A stretch of DNA of 36,871 nt, from the IMG/VR virus record IMGVR_UViG_3300043331_001774, positions 1 to 36,871 of that record, one strand, 5' to 3'. Below, in pieces: positions 4,310-15,746 of this stretch. This DNA comes from a virus. The stretch's first letter is position 1; every line of letters begins with the position of its first letter. The notes under the pieces were generated by a model, which had not been told where the DNA came from, did not search any database, and saw nothing but the letters and a program-made list of their open reading frames with translations. The translations under genes and the position numbers were made by a program.

Positions 4310-4449
4310 TGGCGGGGCCAGGTAGGGAAGGCGGGGTGCCGCCTAGCAGAGCGCGGCCAGGCGCGGCAGGGCGGGCAAGGCGTGGTATGGACAGGATCGG
4401 CCCGGAGAGGTTCGTCTGGGCATGGCAGGGCAAGGCGGGTGCGGCATGA
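4309..4449 (+). CDS. doubtful 46-residue ORF in a G-rich repeat tract
   Basis: An ATG at 4309 overlaps the previous stop by one base (TGATG) and opens a 46-residue frame made largely of G, A, R and P. The DNA is a low-complexity tract of imperfect GGCAGGG and GGGCAAGGC repeats, so the composition may just reflect the repeats. The last 28 bases overlap the ERF gene. The coupling argues for translation and the composition against a folded product. It may serve only to carry ribosomes to the ERF start. Confidence 0.25.
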   Translation: MAGPGREGGVPPSRARPGAAGRARRGMDRIGPERFVWAWQGKAGAA

Positions 4450-5132
4450 TCTTCTCCGAGCCGCACGATCAGGTGATCACCGCCTTCTGGAGCGCCCTGG
4501 GGGCGATCGAGGAAGTCGCCAAGACCCAAGAAGCCGACACCGGCAAGTTCAAGTACCGCTATCCGGCGCTGGGTGACGTGTTGGAGGAGGTGAAGCGGGC
4601 GTGCCGGTTGTTCAAGTTGGAGGTGAGCCAGAACGCCTACGTCGAGGACGGGATGCTGGCGCTGTCCACGTACCTGCTCCACGAGAGCGGGGAGTGGTTG
4701 TCCTTCGCCCCGCTACGGATGCGCCTGGGCAACGATCCCCAGGCGGTCGGGTCAGCGATGACATACTCCCGCCGGTACAGCCTGCTCACTATCTTCGGCA
4801 TCGCCACCGAGGATGATGACGCCCAAGCTGCGCGTAAGGAACAGGCCGCGGCGACGGCGTCCTACCGCAGCGCCGCCGAGGAACGCATCCACAACGAGCT
4901 GGCCGCGCTGCCCCCGGAGCAAGCTCGGACGGTGCGCGATGCGTTCCGGGAGCACTTCGGGCGCGGGCTGAGCGACTTGGCCGTGAATCGCCACGGGGAA
5001 GCGCTCACCTACGTCCTGGAGGAAATCGAGGACATCAAGTTCACCGCCGAGGTCGACACCGCCAAGGCGGGGGACGAACTTGCCGCTGAGAAGGATGACG
5101 AGTTGGCCGAGCAAGGGGAGGGATACGGATGA
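4422..5132 (+). CDS. erf: ERF-family single-strand DNA annealing protein
   Basis: This 236-residue protein is a recombinase of the ERF family, which anneals complementary single strands during phage recombination and genome circularisation. The conserved core is visible: FKYRYPALGDVLEEVKRA (43-60), LSTYLLHESGEWL (81-93), NDPQAVGSAMTYSRRYSLL (104-122), then GIATEDDD (126-133). The glycine-serine-alanine/tyrosine-arginine-arginine segment is the family hallmark. A charged helical tail follows, ending in an acidic stretch that may bind a partner protein. Two starts are possible: ATG 4422 with GGAGAGG eleven bases upstream, or ATG 4446, which begins at MIFSEP. The next gene overlaps by four bases (ATGA). 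Confidence 0.88.
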   Translation: MAGQGGCGMIFSEPHDQVITAFWSALGAIEEVAKTQEADTGKFKYRYPALGDVLEEVKRACRLFKLEVSQNAYVEDGMLALSTYLLHESGEWLSFAPLRMRLGNDPQAVGSAMTYSRRYSLLTIFGIATEDDDAQAARKEQAAATASYRSAAEERIHNELAALPPEQARTVRDAFREHFGRGLSDLAVNRHGEALTYVLEEIEDIKFTAEVDTAKAGDELAAEKDDELAEQGEGYG

Positions 5133-6345: not shown

Positions 6346-6494
6346 TGGAACGACCCCGCTGCGACTATCGCCACGACGACGAACGGATGGCCGACTGGGC
6401 TCTGATCGGCGAGGCGGGCGACTTCTTTGTCTGTGACGAGCACTTTCAACAGCGCACCGACGAGGGCAAGCGCGGCTGGAGCAGAATCGTCTGA
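6345..6494 (+). CDS. 49-residue hypothetical protein
   Basis: This small gene lies between overlapping neighbours: ATG 6345 shares a base with the previous TGA, and its own TGA shares a base with ATG 6494 of the endolysin. GGAGGGG sits about 15 bases upstream. The product begins MERPRCDYRH and includes FFVCDEHF, so a C-H / C-x(2)-H metal site is possible. The chained overlaps are the main evidence that it is translated. Function unknown. Confidence 0.5.
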   Translation: MERPRCDYRHDDERMADWALIGEAGDFFVCDEHFQQRTDEGKRGWSRIV

Positions 6495-7441
6495 TGGGCT
6501 CGATCTATCTCGACTTCCTTGACGACGCCGTCAAGGTTGCCGCCGAGGCCACCGGCTACTCCTGGAAGGTGTACGACTCGTCATGGCTGCACCGGGCGCG
6601 CAGCTCGGGCGGCTACGACACCCTCCCCCTGTGCGTGATGTGGCACCACACGGCCGGGGCCGACAACGCCCAAGGCGAGGCCGATTACATGGTCAAGCAG
6701 GCCGACGCCCGGCCGATCGCCAACATCTGCGTCGACTCCAAGATCGCCATCGTGATGGCGGGCGGGGCGACCAACACCAACGGCTCGGGGGTCAACAGCC
6801 CGATGACGTTCTCCCGCGGCACGGTTGCCAAGGACGACATGAACCGGCGCGCCGTGGGGATCGAAATCTGCAACAACGGGGTCGGCGCGACCTACCCCGA
6901 GAAGCAAATGAACTTCCTGTTCGCCCTCAGCAACGAGATCAACCGGCGCTGTGGCAACCAGCCCACCGACGTGTGCACCCACCAGCACTACGCGCCCGAC
7001 CGCAAGATCGACCCCGCTGTCGCCGCGGCGGTCCAGGGTGTCTGGAAGCCCCGCAGCGTCAACAGCTCGGGCAGCTGGAACGTCGAGGACCTGCGGGCTG
7101 AGTGCAAGCGGCGCTGGGCTGGAACAGCGCCCGGCCCGACGCCCCCACCCACACCGACCGAGGAGGACGACATGGTCTGGCGCGTAGCGAAGTGGGCCGA
7201 AGGCAACGCCTACTACATCGGGGACGGCAACAAGTCGTGGCACGTCCCGAGCGAGATCGACGCCGACGAGGCGGCGTGCATGATGGCGCCGGGGGCGGTC
7301 AACGTCGTGCGCTGCGTCTGGGACAAGGCCGACGACGCCAACTCCGGTCCGCGCATGGTGACGAGCTGGGGCCAGATCAAGGCCACGTGCGGAACCAACG
7401 CCCTGAAGAAGTACGTCGGGGTGAATCCCAAGATTCAGTGA
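6494..7441 (+). CDS. endolysin, N-acetylmuramoyl-L-alanine amidase
   Basis: This 315-residue lysin has an N-terminal Amidase_2/PGRP-type zinc amidase that cuts the bond between muramic acid and the stem peptide. Zinc ligands are expected at the WHHT motif (H51/H52) and at THQHY (H163/H165). A family-type acid position is D173 in DRKIDP. VGIEICNN (121-128) is the central strand that precedes the helix in this fold. A proline/threonine linker (about 211-225) leads to a C-terminal domain of about 90 residues with repeated tryptophans, likely a cell-wall binding or structural module. ATG 6494 overlaps the previous stop. It is followed by the holin candidate, the usual lysis arrangement. No signal peptide is seen, so export through a holin is expected. 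Confidence 0.88.
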   Translation: MGSIYLDFLDDAVKVAAEATGYSWKVYDSSWLHRARSSGGYDTLPLCVMWHHTAGADNAQGEADYMVKQADARPIANICVDSKIAIVMAGGATNTNGSGVNSPMTFSRGTVAKDDMNRRAVGIEICNNGVGATYPEKQMNFLFALSNEINRRCGNQPTDVCTHQHYAPDRKIDPAVAAAVQGVWKPRSVNSSGSWNVEDLRAECKRRWAGTAPGPTPPPTPTEEDDMVWRVAKWAEGNAYYIGDGNKSWHVPSEIDADEAACMMAPGAVNVVRCVWDKADDANSGPRMVTSWGQIKATCGTNALKKYVGVNPKIQ

Positions 7442-7464: not shown

Positions 7465-7794
7465 ATGGCGTCCCACATCCCCCGGCCGCCAGTCAAGACG
7501 ATGACCGACTTCGTCGTCTTCTGCTTCGTCAGCATCGTCGTCATCATCCTCGTCACGTCAGCGGTCGGCGTGGTGGTGATCACGATCGCCGACCCCGACC
7601 GCGATCAGAGCAACGTGATCAACGTGCTCGCCGACATCATGACCACGCTCATCGGCTCGCTGGTCGGCTTCATCGCCGGGAAGGGCAGCGGCCGTAGTGA
7701 GGTGCAGGACGAGATCATCGAGCGTGAGCGCGAGGAGATCATGCGCGACCGCGAGACCATTCAGCGTGAGCGCGAGGAGCGTCTGCAACAGTGA
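7465..7794 (+). CDS. holin candidate with two membrane helices and coiled-coil tail
   Basis: This 109-residue protein has two hydrophobic segments (about 15-42 and 54-72) joined by a short charged loop, then a strongly charged helical tail of E and R (about 78-109). Size, topology and position directly after the amidase fit a class II-type phage holin, which would open the membrane for the endolysin. The charged tail is longer than in minimal holins and may form a coiled coil. ATG 7465 lacks a strong ribosome site. The next gene overlaps by four bases (GTGA). Confidence 0.65.
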
Positions 7795-8543
7795 CCCCGA
7801 AGCAGGGCTTCTGGACGATCATCACGATCGTCACCGTGATCGGGGTCGGTCTGGCGTCCGGCTTGCTCACCAACGCCTATGCGTCGAGCGCCGCAACCAC
7901 GACCACCACGACGGCCGTGGTCCCGGGGGGCGTCCCTGGCCCTCCGGGGCCGCCTGGGCCCACCGGGCCGCCCGGTGAGAGAGGAGCGCAAGGTGAACAA
8001 GGACCGCCTGGAGAACCAGGTCAGCGTGGCCCTATTGGTCCTGTCGGTCGTCCTGGCGTCGATGGCGACCCTGGCGTGGCTGGTCGTCCTGGGCCTGCTG
8101 GACCCACTGGTCCGCAAGGTCCCGCGGGTTCGCCTGGCCCGGCAGGGGAGGACGGAGCTGACGGAGTCGACGGAGCGCCCGGCGACGACGGAGCCACCGG
8201 CGCATCAGGGCCACCCGGGCCTGCTGGTGATCCCGGACCAGTGGGACCCCGAGGACGCACTGGAGACGTGGGGGCTCCCGGTGCAGCAGGAGTACCCGGA
8301 CCCGAAGGGCCTGCCGGACCACCTGGCAGCACGGGTCCGCCGGGCCCACAAGGCGAAGCCGGACCTGCCGGACCACCTGGCGGCGTGGGCCCACCGGGAG
8401 AACAGGGCCCCCCGGGCGATCCGGGACCCGTAGGGCCACCAGGGCTCGGATGCCCCGAGGGGATGGAGTTGGTGACGATCGTCGTCCACCAGCGCGTGCC
8501 CGAGGACACTGACCGGGAGATTCAGGTCTGCGCTAGTCCGTGA
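7791..8543 (+). CDS. membrane-anchored collagen-like protein
   Basis: This 250-residue protein has a hydrophobic segment (8-30) that is a signal anchor or signal peptide, a threonine-rich spacer (35-43), then about 175 residues of collagen-type G-X-Y triplets (about 46-222). It ends in a small tail domain with two cysteines (in LGCPEG and QVCASP). By analogy with bacterial and viral collagen-like proteins, the triplets would form a trimeric rod outside the membrane. The GTG start overlaps the holin stop, so both are co-translated. Its role in a lysis block is unclear: it may span the periphery as a spanin substitute, decorate the host surface or aid virion release. The triplet DNA is low-complexity and opens several other frames. 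Confidence 0.75.
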
Positions 8544-8613
8544 CGAGGGCGATGATGCTCAGCACGAGCGCCGCCACAGCCATCAAGAGCGTCAGGTCAC
8601 CGAGCCGGTTCAT
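8533..8613 (-). CDS. 26-residue single-helix membrane peptide
   Basis: ATG at 8613 (complement) opens a 26-residue peptide beginning [12 protein letters not shown]. It is almost entirely one hydrophobic helix (about residues 7-24) with charged ends. The start overlaps the stop of the S74 tail fibre gene as ATGA, the same coupling used along the operon, which is the main support. It is the last gene of the leftward block and overlaps the end of the collagen-like gene on the opposite strand by 11 bases. It could act on the membrane during lysis or be a small structural peptide; function unknown. Confidence 0.55.
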
Positions 8614-9725
8614 GCCAGCCTCGCTTCCAGTTGGTCGATGCGGTCCAGGGCGTTCCCCAGCGCCGAGAACAGCAGGGGGACGAGCTTGCCGTAGTCGACC
8701 ATCATCGGGTCGATCGCCCCCGAAGGCGTGTAGCCCTCCGGGTTACCGCTGGTGGCGTACGGGGCGACGGTCGAGATGTCCTGGGCGCTGAGCATGTCGA
8801 ACTCCTTGCCGTTGGGGTCATCCCGCCAGCGGCCCCGGAAGGCGAGCCGGGCGAGCTGCTGGGCGCGCCGGGCGGCGTCGGTGATCGGGGCCAGACGCTC
8901 CTTCAGGCGCATGTCTGAGCCCTCGTCGTAGACCACGGTCAGACCAGCGCCCTTCTTGATCGAGCCGACCGGCTGGTCGACGTTTACCTGGAAGGCGATC
9001 CAGCGCGTGCCCTCGACGAAGTTGGAGTTACCCTTCCGCCCCAGGGCCAGGTTGGCCACGGTGAGGTTGCCGCTGTCAACGGTCGAGCGGTAGGTGCCGT
9101 TGACGTTCTGGTGCGCGCCGGGGTCGTTGAGCTCGGGGTTGACTCCCCATGTGAGCCTGCCGGTCATGGTGTCCCCGTCGACCTGGACGTAGTTGCTGGC
9201 GTCGATCGCGGCGATCTTCTCGTCGACGTACCGCTTGGGCGCGGCCTGGTTGGGACCACTGGGCGCATCGGGGTCGGTCATCGTGAAGCGCAGCGCGGTC
9301 AGCCCCGACTGCATCGTCTGGTTCCCCGGCCCCTCCACCGACTTGCGGATGGCGTCGGTCATCGACTGGTCGACGTACGCCTTGCGCGCCGCGTCGGAGT
9401 CGGCAGTCGGGTTGGGCAGGCCGGTGATCTTGTGGTTGGTCATGTCCAACGGGCCGGTCATCGAGTCGCCCGCGTCGTTGACGTAGGTGCTGTCGGCCCA
9501 GCCCTTGGTGATGGCGTGATTGAGGCTCGTCGGCGCGGTGGTGGGCAGGCTGAGCATCCCGGTCATGGTGTCGCCCGACTTCGACACCTTGCTCGCCGCC
9601 ACCGCTTCGACGGCGTTCACGTCGAGGTCGACCGCCTTGGCCAGATCTTCGATGTCGCCCGCCACGTCGATCAGGTCGGCGTCGAGCGGATAGGGGTAGT
9701 TCTGGTTCGGCGTGGTGCCCGGCAT
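8610..9725 (-). CDS. tail fibre with S74 intramolecular chaperone
   Basis: This 371-residue fibre starts at ATG 9725 with AGGAGAG upstream. An N-terminal segment (1-45) probably attaches to the tail. Three repeats containing GDTMTG or GDSMTG (about 51, 86 and 184) are typical trimeric fibre units, alternating with K-x-YVD motifs. The C-terminal 100 residues are an S74 (endosialidase-type) chaperone: GSDMRLKE at 269-276, then a helix, an AQDIS turn, VDYGKLVPLL and a closing coiled coil. In this family the domain folds the trimer and cuts itself off before the conserved Ser, here S270 next to D271. The receptor is unknown. Confidence 0.85.
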   Translation of the reverse strand: MPGTTPNQNYPYPLDADLIDVAGDIEDLAKAVDLDVNAVEAVAASKVSKSGDTMTGMLSLPTTAPTSLNHAITKGWADSTYVNDAGDSMTGPLDMTNHKITGLPNPTADSDAARKAYVDQSMTDAIRKSVEGPGNQTMQSGLTALRFTMTDPDAPSGPNQAAPKRYVDEKIAAIDASNYVQVDGDTMTGRLTWGVNPELNDPGAHQNVNGTYRSTVDSGNLTVANLALGRKGNSNFVEGTRWIAFQVNVDQPVGSIKKGAGLTVVYDEGSDMRLKERLAPITDAARRAQQLARLAFRGRWRDDPNGKEFDMLSAQDISTVAPYATSGNPEGYTPSGAIDPMMVDYGKLVPLLFSALGNALDRIDQLEARLA

Positions 9726-9734
9726 GGTCTCTCC

Positions 9735-10463
9735 TCAGGCTTGGATGACGGCGCGGAACGCGGCGGCGGCAGGGGCGGAGCTGAAGCGGATGGTCACCGT
9801 GTTGGTGTCGGTGCGCTCGATCGCAGTCAAGTCGGCCACGCCCACTTCGATGTTCTCCCACGGCGTCGAGTTGCGGTAGAGCTGGACTGACACGTCGCGG
9901 GTGCCGAGCGTATGGCTGAGCACGACGGCGGTGCTGCCGCCGACATCGGCGTTGTAGCGGGCGGGACCGGCCGGGACCTGCCACGAGCCGTCCGAGCGCA
10001 AGAACTTGGTCAGGTCGATCGTCACCGGCGGCGGCACGGCCCCGCTCTCGGTCTCGGTGAAGTCGAGGATGCTCAGGCTGAGGTCGGTGTCCAACGTCCC
10101 GCCGCCCTCCAGTGGAGCTGTCGTGTCGATCAGGCGCGTCGCCGGAACGGTGCCCTCGGCCTCGGCCGGTGCGGCCCAGGTCCCATCGGAGCGCAGGTAC
10201 TTGGTCAGGTCCACGGTCCCCGGGGACGGCACCGCACCCTTCACGGCCTCGGTGAAGGTTTCGATGTCGAAGGTGCGGTTGGCCGAGAGGTCGCCCCCGC
10301 CCGTGAGCGGCGACCCCGCCGCCGGGAGCACCGTCGTGATCGCCAGCGCCCGTTCTTCGAAGCCGGAGTGGGCATCGGCGATGCCGATCTCGATCTTGTT
10401 CAGGTTGTCGTCGTTGATCGGCTGACCGGAGCCGTTGGTCCAGGTGGTCGGGGTGTAGGTCAT
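9735..10463 (-). CDS. tail fibre protein with duplicated repeat
   Basis: This is a 242-residue fibre. Two similar units of about 70 residues are visible, each with a PLTGGG- or PLEGGG-type strand, a GAVP turn and T(V/I)DLTK(Y/F)LRSDG(T/S)W, followed by a distinct C-terminal beta domain (about 165-242). The repeated LRSDG-x-W pattern is common in phage fibres. ATG 10463 has AAGGAGG close upstream. It lies between two S74 fibre regions and may assemble with them at the tail tip. The sequence does not name a ligand. Confidence 0.7.
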   Translation of the reverse strand: MTYTPTTWTNGSGQPINDDNLNKIEIGIADAHSGFEERALAITTVLPAAGSPLTGGGDLSANRTFDIETFTEAVKGAVPSPGTVDLTKYLRSDGTWAAPAEAEGTVPATRLIDTTAPLEGGGTLDTDLSLSILDFTETESGAVPPPVTIDLTKFLRSDGSWQVPAGPARYNADVGGSTAVVLSHTLGTRDVSVQLYRNSTPWENIEVGVADLTAIERTDTNTVTIRFSSAPAAAAFRAVIQA

Positions 10464-10472
10464 GTGGCCTCC

Positions 10473-10739
10473 TTATGCCGCCAAGAGTGCCTGGACGGTC
10501 GACAGGATCATCGGGTCGGTGATCACGGAGTCGTCCCATCCGGGTCGGCCGATCCCGGCCACGATTGCAGACTCGTAGGCCGCGTCGAAGCCGGGCGAGG
10601 CAGCGAGGCTCCACCGCTGCTGCTGAACCCACGAGTACGGCTCAACGCCCTCGGGTAGCGCCTGGGTGGCCGCGCAAGCCGTGCAACGGCTCAGGAAGTC
10701 CTGATCGGCGGCGAGGGTGGACTGCGTGGCGTAGCTCAT
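10473..10739 (-). CDS. small tail-associated hypothetical protein
   Basis: This is an 88-residue helical protein beginning MSYATQSTLAADQDF, with cysteines in CTACAATQ. Its ATG at 10739 overlaps the stop of the S74 fibre above it (ATGA), so it is part of the fibre transcript. It is too short for a fibre and may be an assembly factor, or a product of unknown role common in tail modules. Confidence 0.5.
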   Translation of the reverse strand: MSYATQSTLAADQDFLSRCTACAATQALPEGVEPYSWVQQQRWSLAASPGFDAAYESAIVAGIGRPGWDDSVITDPMILSTVQALLAA

Positions 10740-11680
10740 GGTGTCTCCAGTTGGGCTTTCAGTTGGGCAACTTCGGCGGTCAGCTCCTGCACCGCGGCGA
10801 CGAGCAACGGGATGAGTTGGGAGGCATCGAGCTGCTGGGAGACGATCGCCCCGGCCGTGGGTGCCATCCCCGCCTCGACATCAGCAGGAGTTGCCACAGC
10901 ATCCTTGGCCCCGGTGACCGCTTGGGGAACAACCTCGGAGACCTCGTGAGCGAAGAAGCCGTCCATCACCTGGCGCGTCGGGTCGGATTTCCAGATCACC
11001 CGGCGAGGCATCAGTCGGCCCAGCCGGTCGAGCGCCCCCGTGATCGGACCCTGGCCCTCTTTCAACCGGTAGTCCGACGACGTGTTGTAGAGCACGGCTG
11101 AGGTCGTGCCGTTGCGGATGATGTTGCCGATGGTGGTGTTGTTCAGCCGGAAGCTGGCGTACTGCGTACCGCTGGCCACCCCGGCCCCGATCTTGTTCCC
11201 GACATAGCAGGCGTTCCCGGCGAGCGAGTTGGTGATGTAGATGTAGACCCCGCCGTCGCTGGTCGGTGGGCGCATGAAGATGCCCACATCAGTGTTGACC
11301 GGGGAGGACTGCCCGAAGCAGAAGTAGTTGTTGGAGAGGAACCGGGCAGTCTCCTTCCCGCTGGCCCAGAACTCGACCACACCGAGCCTCGACTCACCCG
11401 ACGTATTGAGGTGGAGCAACGAGAGCGCGCCGTTGTCCCGGGCCACGATCTCGTTGCCATCAGCGATCAGGTTGAGACCTGCGGTCGGCCCGATCTGCAA
11501 CCCGTGCAGGGTGCTCGTCTCACTCGCATCACCGGTCGAGGTCACACGAATCTTGGGCAACGCGAGATCGCCGCTCATCGTGTCACCGTCCACGTTGACG
11601 TAGCGCGTGTCGCCCTCGGTCCAATCGAGCGGTCCGGGTGGCCCTTCCGGCCCGCGAATGTTGCCCAAGAGTGTCGCCAT
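10736..11680 (-). CDS. tail fibre with collagen-like start and S74 chaperone
   Basis: This is a 314-residue fibre. The first 20 residues (MATLLGNIRGPEGPPGP) resemble the start of the next gene upstream. A GDTMSG repeat at 32-37 follows, then a mainly beta body with many N, S and T residues. From about 200, SSDYRLKE begins an S74 chaperone (S202, D203 being the expected self-cleavage pair), with VMDGFFAHEVSEVVP, an IVSQQLDASQLIPLLV helix and a coiled coil to the end. The start shares one base with the upstream stop (TGATG). It is the second S74 fibre in the operon, so two alternative or nested fibres are likely. Confidence 0.82.
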   Translation of the reverse strand: MATLLGNIRGPEGPPGPLDWTEGDTRYVNVDGDTMSGDLALPKIRVTSTGDASETSTLHGLQIGPTAGLNLIADGNEIVARDNGALSLLHLNTSGESRLGVVEFWASGKETARFLSNNYFCFGQSSPVNTDVGIFMRPPTSDGGVYIYITNSLAGNACYVGNKIGAGVASGTQYASFRLNNTTIGNIIRNGTTSAVLYNTSSDYRLKEGQGPITGALDRLGRLMPRRVIWKSDPTRQVMDGFFAHEVSEVVPQAVTGAKDAVATPADVEAGMAPTAGAIVSQQLDASQLIPLLVAAVQELTAEVAQLKAQLETP

Positions 11681-12144
11681 CAGGCACCGACCAGCTCGTA
11701 CACGTCACCGCTGGACACGTCGAGATAGAGGTCACCGGCGATCGACCCGGAGATCGGCTCGACGGGTGCGCCCGACCCGGTGAACCAGCCGGTGCCGCGC
11801 GGCCCGCTCGGTCCTTGGCTGCCGGTCGCGCCCTGCGGGCCTTGTGGCCCTTGCGCGCCGGGCGGCCCCTGGATGCTCCCGCCGGAGACCCACGCCGTGC
11901 CGTCCCAAATGTGCAGCGAGTCGTCGGCTTCGACGATGTAGGCATCGCCCTGGGCATTGCCGGTCGGGGGTAGGTCGCCGACCGTGGGGACGCTGCCCTG
12001 CATCGTGATCCCGGTGCCAGCCGCGCCCTGTGGACCCTGTGGTCCTTCCGGTCCTGTCGGGCCGGTAGGGCCTTCCGGGCCGGTCGGCCCTTGTGCGCCT
12101 TGGGCTCCTTGCGGTCCCCTGATGTTGCCGACCAGTGCTGCCAT
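11680..12144 (-). CDS. collagen-like tail fibre segment
   Basis: This 154-residue protein begins with the same MA-x-L-x-GNIRGP segment as the following gene. It then has a collagen-type run (about 8-45), a small beta module containing HIWDGTAWV, a second G-X-Y run and a C-terminal module ending GDLYLDVSSGDVYEL. ATG 12144 is taken as start because GGAGG lies four bases upstream; an in-frame GTG three bases earlier is too close to it. It overlaps both neighbours by one base. It probably acts as a rod or linker in the fibre bundle. Confidence 0.7.
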   Translation of the reverse strand: MAALVGNIRGPQGAQGAQGPTGPEGPTGPTGPEGPQGPQGAAGTGITMQGSVPTVGDLPPTGNAQGDAYIVEADDSLHIWDGTAWVSGGSIQGPPGAQGPQGPQGATGSQGPSGPRGTGWFTGSGAPVEPISGSIAGDLYLDVSSGDVYELVGA

Positions 12145-12479
12145 CACCCCTCCAGGGCTAGTTGGTACACGTCGCCCGTCGAAGTGTCGAGGTAGTAGTC
12201 ACCCGGGCTGGCTCCCGCTACCGGCTCCACGGGCGACCCCGGGCCGTCGAACCACTTGGTGCCGTCCTCGCCCGCCGGTCCCGGCACGGCCGCCTTGGCG
12301 TCGACGTACTGCTTGGTGGCCGCCTCCAGTGGCTGCTCGGGATCAGCCGCCAGGGTCAGGCCGCCGGTCATCGTGTCGCCGTCTGCGTTGACGAATCGCT
12401 CATCGCAGCCGGTGCAGTCCCCCGGCGCGGTGGTGCCGATGGACAACAGGTCGGGCCATGGAGGCGTGGTCTGGCTCAT
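12144..12479 (-). CDS. short tail fibre protein, GDTMTG type
   Basis: This is a 111-residue protein with a GDTMTGGLTL unit (about 34-43) and ATKQYVDAK (about 54-62), both typical of phage fibre repeats. Its C-terminal module ends GDYYLDTSTGDVYQL. That module closely resembles the C-terminus of the next gene downstream, so the two are probably duplicates. The start (ATG 12479) overlaps the previous stop (ATGA). Confidence 0.68.
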   Translation of the reverse strand: MSQTTPPWPDLLSIGTTAPGDCTGCDERFVNADGDTMTGGLTLAADPEQPLEAATKQYVDAKAAVPGPAGEDGTKWFDGPGSPVEPVAGASPGDYYLDTSTGDVYQLALEG

Positions 12480-13672: not shown

Positions 13673-15436
13673 CTAGGCCGCCAGGTCACCGATCACCACC
13701 CAGTCGTTGGTGGCGATCTTCTTCGCTGTCGCGGCGCTGTATTGGGCGCGCAGCTTCAGCCCCGGCGTGCCGTTGACGGTCGCCCCCGACCCGGCGACGA
13801 ACGTAGGCTGCCCGACCCCGAGCCAGAGGAAGTCGATTTCGGCCCCGACCGCGATCGAGGACGATGCGTTGGAAGGCAGGGTCACGGTAATCGGGGCAGC
13901 ATTTGACAGTGTGACCATCCGGTTCTCATGGGCGGAGTTCGGCGCGAACGCGGTGCTGGTCTCGGAAACGATGATGCGCCGGACCGGAGCCACGTCGGTG
14001 CCGATGGTCAGCCCGAGTGTTGCCCGCATGGCCGTCACGCTGGCGTCGTCGAGCAGGTTGCGGGCGGCGCTTGTGAAGCTGGTCGTATCGGCGGTACCCG
14101 CGCCGGTGAAGTACGGCAACTGGTTGGACGCCGAGGTCAGCCCAGCGAGCGCCTTCAACTCGGGGTCGCCGATCTGGGCTGCCGTCACGGCGTCGTTGTC
14201 GATCGTCAACGTGGTGCCACCGCCGCCCACGGTGATGTCGCCCTTGTCCCCGTCGGGTCCGAGCCCATCTGCTCCGCTCGCCGTGGAAGTGATCGTGATC
14301 GTGCCCGCGGTGTCGTCGTAAGCGAGGTCGATGCCGGTGCCTTCCAGCAGGCCGCCTAGGCCGAGCAGGTCCATGACACCCTCGGCGTCGAGGCCCGTGC
14401 TGGGCGTCTCCCAGGCGACCGCGTAGTCGTCGCTGCTGGTCTTGGTCAGCACTTGCCCGTCCGTGCCCCCGGGGAGCAAGCCCTGAACTGGCGGGGGTTC
14501 GAACACCACCAGCACCGGCACCCCATCGAGCGGTTCGGAACCCGCGGGCGACCCACCCGCGGTGGCGACAGGGATCGAGACCTTGGAGCCGTCGGTGGTG
14601 GGCGAACCGGTGATGTTGTAGCGGTGCCACGAGTCGGCGTTGGAGGCGTACTGGAGGTAGATCGTGTAGACGTCGCTCAGCGTCAACAGGAACGGCGACC
14701 AGTCGATGCCCTGCCGGTCGATGCGGTGAAGGGTCAGGATCGTCGCGTCGGTGGGGGCGTCGTCGTTCACGCACGCCTCGCCGATTGCCACCGTGGTCGA
14801 GGGGGCGGCGCGCCATGTCCATGCGGTGCGCTGGGCATTGCCCCCGGGCGGACCAGGGATGCCCTGGTCACCCTGCTCGCCCTGGACGCCCTGGGGCCCG
14901 GCTTCGCCTTGTGGCCCGGCTGGCCCGGTCGCCCCCGTGTCCCCCACTGGCCCGGCGGGTCCCGTTGGCCCGATGTCGCCCTCGGGGCCTTGGAACGGGC
15001 CGGTGTTGATCCAGGTGATGCCGTTGTAAACGAGGCCGTCGTTGATCGAGCCACCGGTCGTGCCACCCGGACCCGGCGCGTTCGGGTCATCGGCAGTGAG
15101 CACCCACAGGTCGTTCTGCTCGGGCGTCGGGATGGCCTGGATCTCTGTCCACGTGGCCGAGCCTTCGACCTCCAGCCCGGCCCCGGTCGGGCCAGCGGGT
15201 CCCGCAGGCCCCATTGGGCCTGGCGGTCCTGGTGGACCGACGATCACGACATCACACGGGGCGCACGCCTCGGGGATCGTGGGCAGCGCGCCCACCTCGG
15301 CGAGGAACGCCGCCTCCAGTTCCGGCGGGACGTCGTAGCCCGCCATGGTCAGGATGATCTCGGTGGTGGGGATCGCCATCCCTTCGGCCAGATCACGCAG
15401 CCGCAGACCGACCCAACGATCACGCAACGGGATCAT
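13673..15436 (-). CDS. large collagen-like tail fibre
   Basis: This 587-residue fibre starts at ATG 15436, six bases after GGAGG; an in-frame GTG at 15442 touches that site and is less likely. Residues 1-60 form a helical attachment domain. Two collagen-like stretches follow (about 66-88 and 150-200), separated by a small beta module. Next come a beta domain, a fibre segment with repeated [16 protein letters not shown]-type units and a C-terminal beta domain. Glycine triplets are regular. It overlaps the 15420-15746 gene by 17 bases. It is the largest fibre here and probably the main shaft. Confidence 0.75.
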
Positions 15437-15746
15437 GTGCACCCTCCTGTTGGTTGACCGATGGTACGCGCTGAGTTTGGCGCAGTTCGATGACCAGCGC
15501 GTGCAGCTCAGCGACCTCCAGCGTCAGGTTCGCCACCCGGTTGGCCAGGATCTCCTTCACCGCTCGATCGCGATTGACGATCGTCAACAGGTCGTCGTAG
15601 GTGGGCTGCTCGTGCATCAACGGGTGGTCCTTCCCCTGGGAGGTACGGCGCGCCGCCGGGCGACCGGGAATGGATGCGCGCTCGTGACGGTCCGGCTGAT
15701 TGGACAGCCGGTGTAGGGGGTGGGTTGACGGCTGCCGGTCGGTCAC
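15420..15746 (-). CDS. small coiled-coil protein with basic disordered start
   Basis: This is a 108-residue protein. The GTG start at 15746 has GGAGG about six bases upstream. By hand count the first 43 codons have about 81% third-position G/C, against 57% for the competing frame over the same bases, so this frame is the coding one here. Residues 1-43 are basic and polar. Residues 44-95 form a helix or coiled coil (NRDRAVKEILANRVANLTLEV and following). It overlaps the large fibre gene by 17 bases and may be a fibre assembly factor. An ATG at 15617 could start a shorter form. Confidence 0.6.
   Translation of the reverse strand: MTDRQPSTHPLHRLSNQPDRHERASIPGRPAARRTSQGKDHPLMHEQPTYDDLLTIVNRDRAVKEILANRVANLTLEVAELHALVIELRQTQRVPSVNQQEGAHDPVA

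Follow-up and report, generated by a model that had tools for sequence, protein, structure and literature searches.

A collagen-stalk protein family associated with the lysis genes of uncultured phages, and a candidate gene nested within its collagen repeat

Analysis of the window, a 36,871-base stretch of DNA that comprises a whole virus record, confirmed 7791-8543 (+) as a real open reading frame (ORF) which starts with GTG and codes for a collagen-stalk protein of 250 aa, relatives of which are carried by around 100 uncultured phages and mostly adjoin lysis genes. A lysis-linked, exported role for the protein is well supported by the genomic data, consistent with the lysis or host-surface role that had been predicted from gene location and membrane anchor; its more specific assignment as an accessory lysis protein resembling LysZ or the spanins, with an external C-terminus and the collagen serving as an adjustable spacer, is given a little better than an even chance. 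Because the window portal protein matched phages nearly all from Actinobacteria, at identities under 60%, the host is likely to be an actinobacterium. The relevant features of the window are as follows.

6494..7441, + strand: endolysin, an N-acetylmuramoyl-L-alanine amidase (Amidase_2; Pfam PF01510, E 3e-13; PHROG endolysin families)
7465..7794, + strand: holin-like protein of 109 aa with two hydrophobic segments and a charged C-terminus (ORF; neighbour family common to 32 loci)
7791..8543, + strand: collagen-stalk protein, membrane-tethered (or exported), 250 aa (ORF list, Pfam, hydropathy)
7815..7871, + strand: N-terminal hydrophobic segment of the collagen-stalk protein, residues 9-27 (mean Kyte-Doolittle 2.05)
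7929..8450, + strand: 58 GXY triplets without interruption, residues 47-220 (Pfam Collagen)
8451..8540, + strand: tip domain, residues 221-250, CPxG...VHQRxPxDxD...VC, with a predicted beta-hairpin between both cysteines (tip motif, structure prediction)
8610..9725, - strand: tail-fibre gene in convergent orientation, bounding the lysis operon (ORF list, PHROG)

The original prediction of a membrane segment, a GXY stalk and a two-cysteine end was borne out in each of its parts, the cysteines being C221 and C247, while a Thr-rich linker was found between the membrane segment and the GXY run, and no second hydrophobic segment was detected in the window protein. The collagen-like character of the stalk was evident from a Pfam Collagen (PF01391) match with an E value of 1.6e-28 and a score of 98.7 bits against a cut-off of 27.2; given the 0.286 nm rise per residue of a collagen triple helix, the stalk would be ~50 nm long if triple-helical. 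The tip, the cysteines of which may be joined by a disulphide, was modelled by AlphaFold2 as a beta-hairpin with a mean pLDDT of 88 (about 95 within the strands), and neither comparison with known families and structures nor a fold search with the 36-residue hairpin (best E 2.8) returned a match.

Co-translation with the holin candidate, also anticipated, was upheld by the 4 nt (GTGA) that the holin-like and collagen ORFs share, both being preceded by the Amidase_2 endolysin; the holin-like protein itself matched no curated family in Pfam, PHROG and other profile searches. Tail-fibre genes (8610-12147) follow on the - strand, convergent with the collagen gene, which sits in a lysis operon opposite to the tail operon, rather than being encoded with structural genes as tail fibres are. 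Two more collagen-repeat proteins (11680-12147 and 13673-15442, both -) are located in the tail operon in an ordinary context, and an ERF-superfamily protein (4422-5132, +; Pfam E 3e-20) is coded for upstream of the lysis genes.

Full-length blastn and tblastn searches against catalogued phages returned no match; as the collagen repeat had probably been masked in the query, the tip was searched alone, and tblastn against 50,697 catalogued phage records again returned no match, even at E 10. A collagen-similarity search yielded mostly ordinary fibres, the loci of which were adopted as the control set, and a single locus (L078) with the same cassette: its endolysin has two PG_binding_1 domains and matches VanY below threshold, its holin-like gene codes for 89 aa, and its collagen protein has an N-terminal transmembrane (TM) segment and the C-terminal end CPAGF...C. 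Searching with two holin-like proteins provided ten loci, in most of which a TM-collagen gene directly followed the holin-like gene. A permissive tip pattern was dropped because its matches were mostly due to chance. Two DNA patterns were written for the tip alone, making no reference to membrane segment, collagen or gene neighbours; they hit 61 and 38 viral contig stretches, around 97 contigs in all, and when deployed as exact patterns gave no match in 84,980 prokaryote genomes. The same gene order recurs among relatives of the window endolysin and of the holin-like gene, which argues that the arrangement is not a matter of chance: two endolysins 69% and 61% identical to that of the window (L304 and L305, respectively) both have a TM-collagen gene downstream. 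Among a further series with a related endolysin (L307-L322), several on short contigs, a collagen gene was not always nearby.

After removal of identical copies, the family consisted of 87 proteins, 82 of which had an N-terminal hydrophobic segment above the cut-off, with four of the remaining five truncated by contig ends and the fifth (L286) slightly under the cut-off at 1.36. All intact copies open with a membrane segment, and a collagen stalk is missing from very few, the range being 0-58 triplets; of the loci that first failed the collagen filter, L261 proved to have a very short stalk, L218 and L237 to have zero triplets, and the others to be cut contigs. The latter two consist of membrane segment and tip without a stalk. 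Since the membrane segment and tip are constant while the collagen varies to this extent, the collagen is best read as a spacer. If triple-helical, the stalks of window-type (HQR) and other non-PGGQ members would measure 20-50 nm (median 30), and those of the PGGQ type 5-56 nm (median 13); because length varies more than tenfold, a strict wall-spanning ruler is unlikely.

The charges flanking the hydrophobic segment display a positive-inside bias that favours an N-in/C-out topology in 74 genes as against one. A check for a signal-peptidase site had been proposed alongside the claim of a membrane anchor; residues 29-31 of the window protein, AYA, fit a possible site for signal peptidase I, which means that the supposed anchor could be a cleaved signal peptide. 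An A-x-A sequence follows the hydrophobic segment in 39 of 85 relatives, somewhat enriched over the 29 found in shuffles, and on this basis some members may be secreted. That the N-terminal segment is a signal peptide whose removal leaves an unanchored collagen trimer to bind the wall is nevertheless considered unlikely, as many members lack A-x-A and as in two fusion proteins (L112 and L265, described below) the segment is internal and almost directly abuts the collagen. Lipobox-like sites were recorded in only four relatives and are absent from the window protein.

Whether the same gene stands beside holins in other phages was assessed in the motif-fetched loci with enough upstream sequence (n = 70) by recording any TM-containing ORF that ended between -40 and +25 of the collagen-gene start. 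A membrane gene ended at that start in 48 of the 70 family loci as against one of 65 control phage collagen ORFs, and the two genes overlapped by 1 or 4 nt in 33 family loci but in none of the 65 controls; a later set of family genes gave a comparable arrangement in 11 of 17. These upstream genes fell into two main families, one with two TM segments (32 loci, the window among them) and the other with a single TM segment and a charged C-terminus (24 loci). Endolysin-like clusters were present in 41 of the same 70 loci. Pfam searches near 40 family loci detected CHAP (9), Amidase_2 (5), M23 (4), GH25 (2) and other wall hydrolases, compared with Amidase_3 (2) and NLPC_P60 (1) near 30 control loci. 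On the question of linkage to lysis or to fibre genes in relatives, which had been posed as a refuting test, the constant neighbour was a small membrane (holin-like) gene, with hydrolases common nearby and rare near the controls.

Collagen-like proteins in phages are usually assigned to tail fibres, the PHROG hits of the window protein are mostly to tail families, and some family loci lie directly downstream of tail-collar genes, all of which could be taken to indicate a virion fibre that merely adjoins lysis genes. The PHROG hits, however, reflect similarity of the repeat, lysis genes are often located just downstream of tail-collar genes, ordinary phage collagens are set apart by lacking such an N-terminal membrane segment and a membrane gene at their start, and the window gene occupies an operon separate from, and convergent to, the tail genes; a virion fibre is consequently regarded as highly improbable.

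Further evidence of partnership was provided by L112 and L265, in which a member of the one-TM neighbour family (hmmsearch E 3e-12) forms the N-terminal part of a fusion with the TM-collagen protein, suggesting that the one-TM and collagen products act together. Both of these loci have an amidase-like gene immediately upstream and a small two-TM protein downstream of the fusion. Physical partnership of this kind, together with co-translation with the membrane gene, would also suit a regulator or partner of the holin, the exported domain sensing or restraining the co-translated holin and thereby timing it, much as T4 RI acts on its holin via an exported domain. Such a role is rated as rather unlikely, given that touching a holin needs neither a long outward stalk nor a conserved distal tip, and that two distinct membrane partner families accompany the one architecture. 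An exported stalk with a conserved tip, and motif matches confined to viral contigs, could also be accommodated by surface display, in the form of receptor masking or a block to superinfection late in infection; but expression coupled to a holin-like gene would be late for exclusion, and the partner in the fusions is a lysis-type membrane protein, making surface display a decidedly poor prospect.

According to the favoured accessory lysis role, the N-terminal helix would cross the cytoplasmic membrane with the N-terminus inside, and the exported part would form a collagen triple helix with the conserved beta-hairpin tip at its outer end, reaching into the wall or past it. The co-translated small membrane lysis protein is the probable partner. 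Following the action of the endolysin, the collagen protein would then help the last envelope layers to yield, as LysZ or the spanins do, with the stalk serving as an adjustable spacer and the tip, through a putative target, as the working part. Architecture, family, neighbourhood, fusion, charge bias and the variation in stalk length are read directly from the sequences; the triple helix, the disulphide, the topology, the tip target and the part played in lysis are inferred.

A second candidate gene was recognised in the +1 frame of the collagen region, where collagen fixes only every third residue and the frame is for that reason free to encode a one-TM protein.

7993..8433, + strand: candidate nested +1-frame gene of 146 aa opening at a GTG, with basic residues after its single membrane segment
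7980..7986, + strand: Shine-Dalgarno-like (SD-like) AGAGGAG, 6 nt before the nested GTG
8035..8091, + strand: membrane segment of the nested ORF (mean hydropathy 2.52)

The Arg codon AGA, part of the SD-like sequence, was used for 2 of the 276 arginines counted across 11 other ORFs of the window. Synonymous shuffles gave the nested segment a mean hydropathy of 0.91 (sd 0.35), below the observed value (p 0.0007). Among window-type genes about 15%, that of the window being one, contain within the collagen region a +1-frame ORF that codes for a membrane segment, more than synonymous shuffling would lead one to expect. A first shuffle test with no requirement for a start or SD-like site differed only weakly between family (8 of 54) and controls (4 of 65) at p<=0.01. 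When start, SD-like site and membrane segment were all required, non-PGGQ genes gave 8 of 41 against 0.25 expected, in a first set that includes the genes that prompted the test and in which the positives L280, L284 and L286 are mutually related; the PGGQ type gave 2 of 33 (0.22 expected) and the controls 0 of 64 (1.0 expected). The idea that hydrophobic +1 ORFs are a mere by-product of collagen composition was rejected, in that start codon plus SD-like site separated family from controls; a family-wide enrichment of T at third codon positions in the nested region was likewise rejected. In the +2 frame the same test detected nothing. Most positives have their nested start between codons 17 and 21 of the collagen region. 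One hit (L344) came from a hold-out of 17 new genes, where about 0.03 was expected; this rate is below that of the first set. One PGGQ-type gene (L253) also has a hydrophobic +1-frame ORF.

Conservation was compared in three pairs, picked after the segments had been seen: the +1 peptides were identical at 16 of 22 positions in L295/L344, 13 of 22 in L284/L286 and 12 of 22 in L280/L286, as against 6, 2 and 1, respectively, of 14 non-glycine collagen residues. These +1 identities were higher than expected from synonymous-codon nulls, with p values of 0.0002 to 0.0004, and from composition shuffles, for which p was 0.0002 to 0.0014. Better conservation of the +1 product than of the collagen residues in two phage groups points to a nested gene, the presence of which in some lineages is considered probable. 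In L280, L284 and L286 the +1 ORF reaches its stop as soon as the membrane segment ends, whereas that of the window is longer. Conservation between the window and L305 was not significant (p 0.16), and the nested ORF is absent from most family genes, including the close relative L304; for the window phage itself the prospects of a nested gene are about even. Evenly poised, too, is the wider proposition that the collagen repeat hides a second lysis gene, such that one DNA stretch would yield both a tethered collagen lysis protein and a small holin-like protein.

In this family, for which searches of profile libraries, prokaryote genomes and catalogued phage records gave no match, collagen forms the stalk of an apparent lysis protein, unlike its usual tail-fibre assignment. 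A literature search, mostly at abstract level and with subscription journals thinly covered, found no description of collagen-like proteins with lysis cassettes, holins or spanins. Few proteins are known that complete envelope breakdown after the endolysin in phages of Gram-positive soil bacteria, and the family offers a concrete candidate for that step. Collagen genes may additionally serve as a natural test bed for overlapping genes: the collagen frame strictly fixes glycines only, so that constraint on the other frame becomes directly measurable.

With regard to known systems, collagen-like tail fibres have the Pfam Collagen repeat in common with the window protein but differ in gene neighbourhood, as the single control with a membrane gene at its start illustrates. 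The spanins are alike in performing an accessory lysis step outside the membrane, and lambda Rz/Rz1, two lysis genes within one DNA stretch, are paralleled by the nested ORF; here, however, no lipoprotein partner was seen, a collagen stalk bears a hairpin tip, and the hosts are probably actinobacterial. The window protein has neither the lipoprotein signal nor the second TM segment bridging two membranes by which spanins are recognised. LysF1a and LysF1b of mycobacteriophages Girr and NormanBulbieJr combine a two-TM and a one-TM protein in one lysis cassette (PMC13056207), and both the one-TM neighbour family and the nested ORFs described here similarly have one TM segment followed by basic residues; LysF1b differs in being predicted as N-out-C-in without an exported domain, and a scan of the neighbour proteins against its Pfam family returned no match. 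LysZ of Corynebacterium phages CL31 and Cog (McKitterick, Lyerly and Bernhardt, doi 10.1073/pnas.2606687123, as reported in PMC13056207) is lysis-associated and has one TM segment in an N-in-C-out orientation; its proposed action is on envelope glycans, outside the membrane, and its deletion leads to small plaques, a phenotype relieved by the absence of a membrane-anchored glycan. The window protein resembles it in having a single membrane segment, a C-terminus placed outside by hydropathy and charge bias, and a location in a lysis cassette, whereas collagen forms no part of LysZ as described there, and the tip motif has no match among the 50,697 catalogued phage records. LysZ is the nearest described analogue, the likeness being one of possible mode of action and no evidence of family membership.
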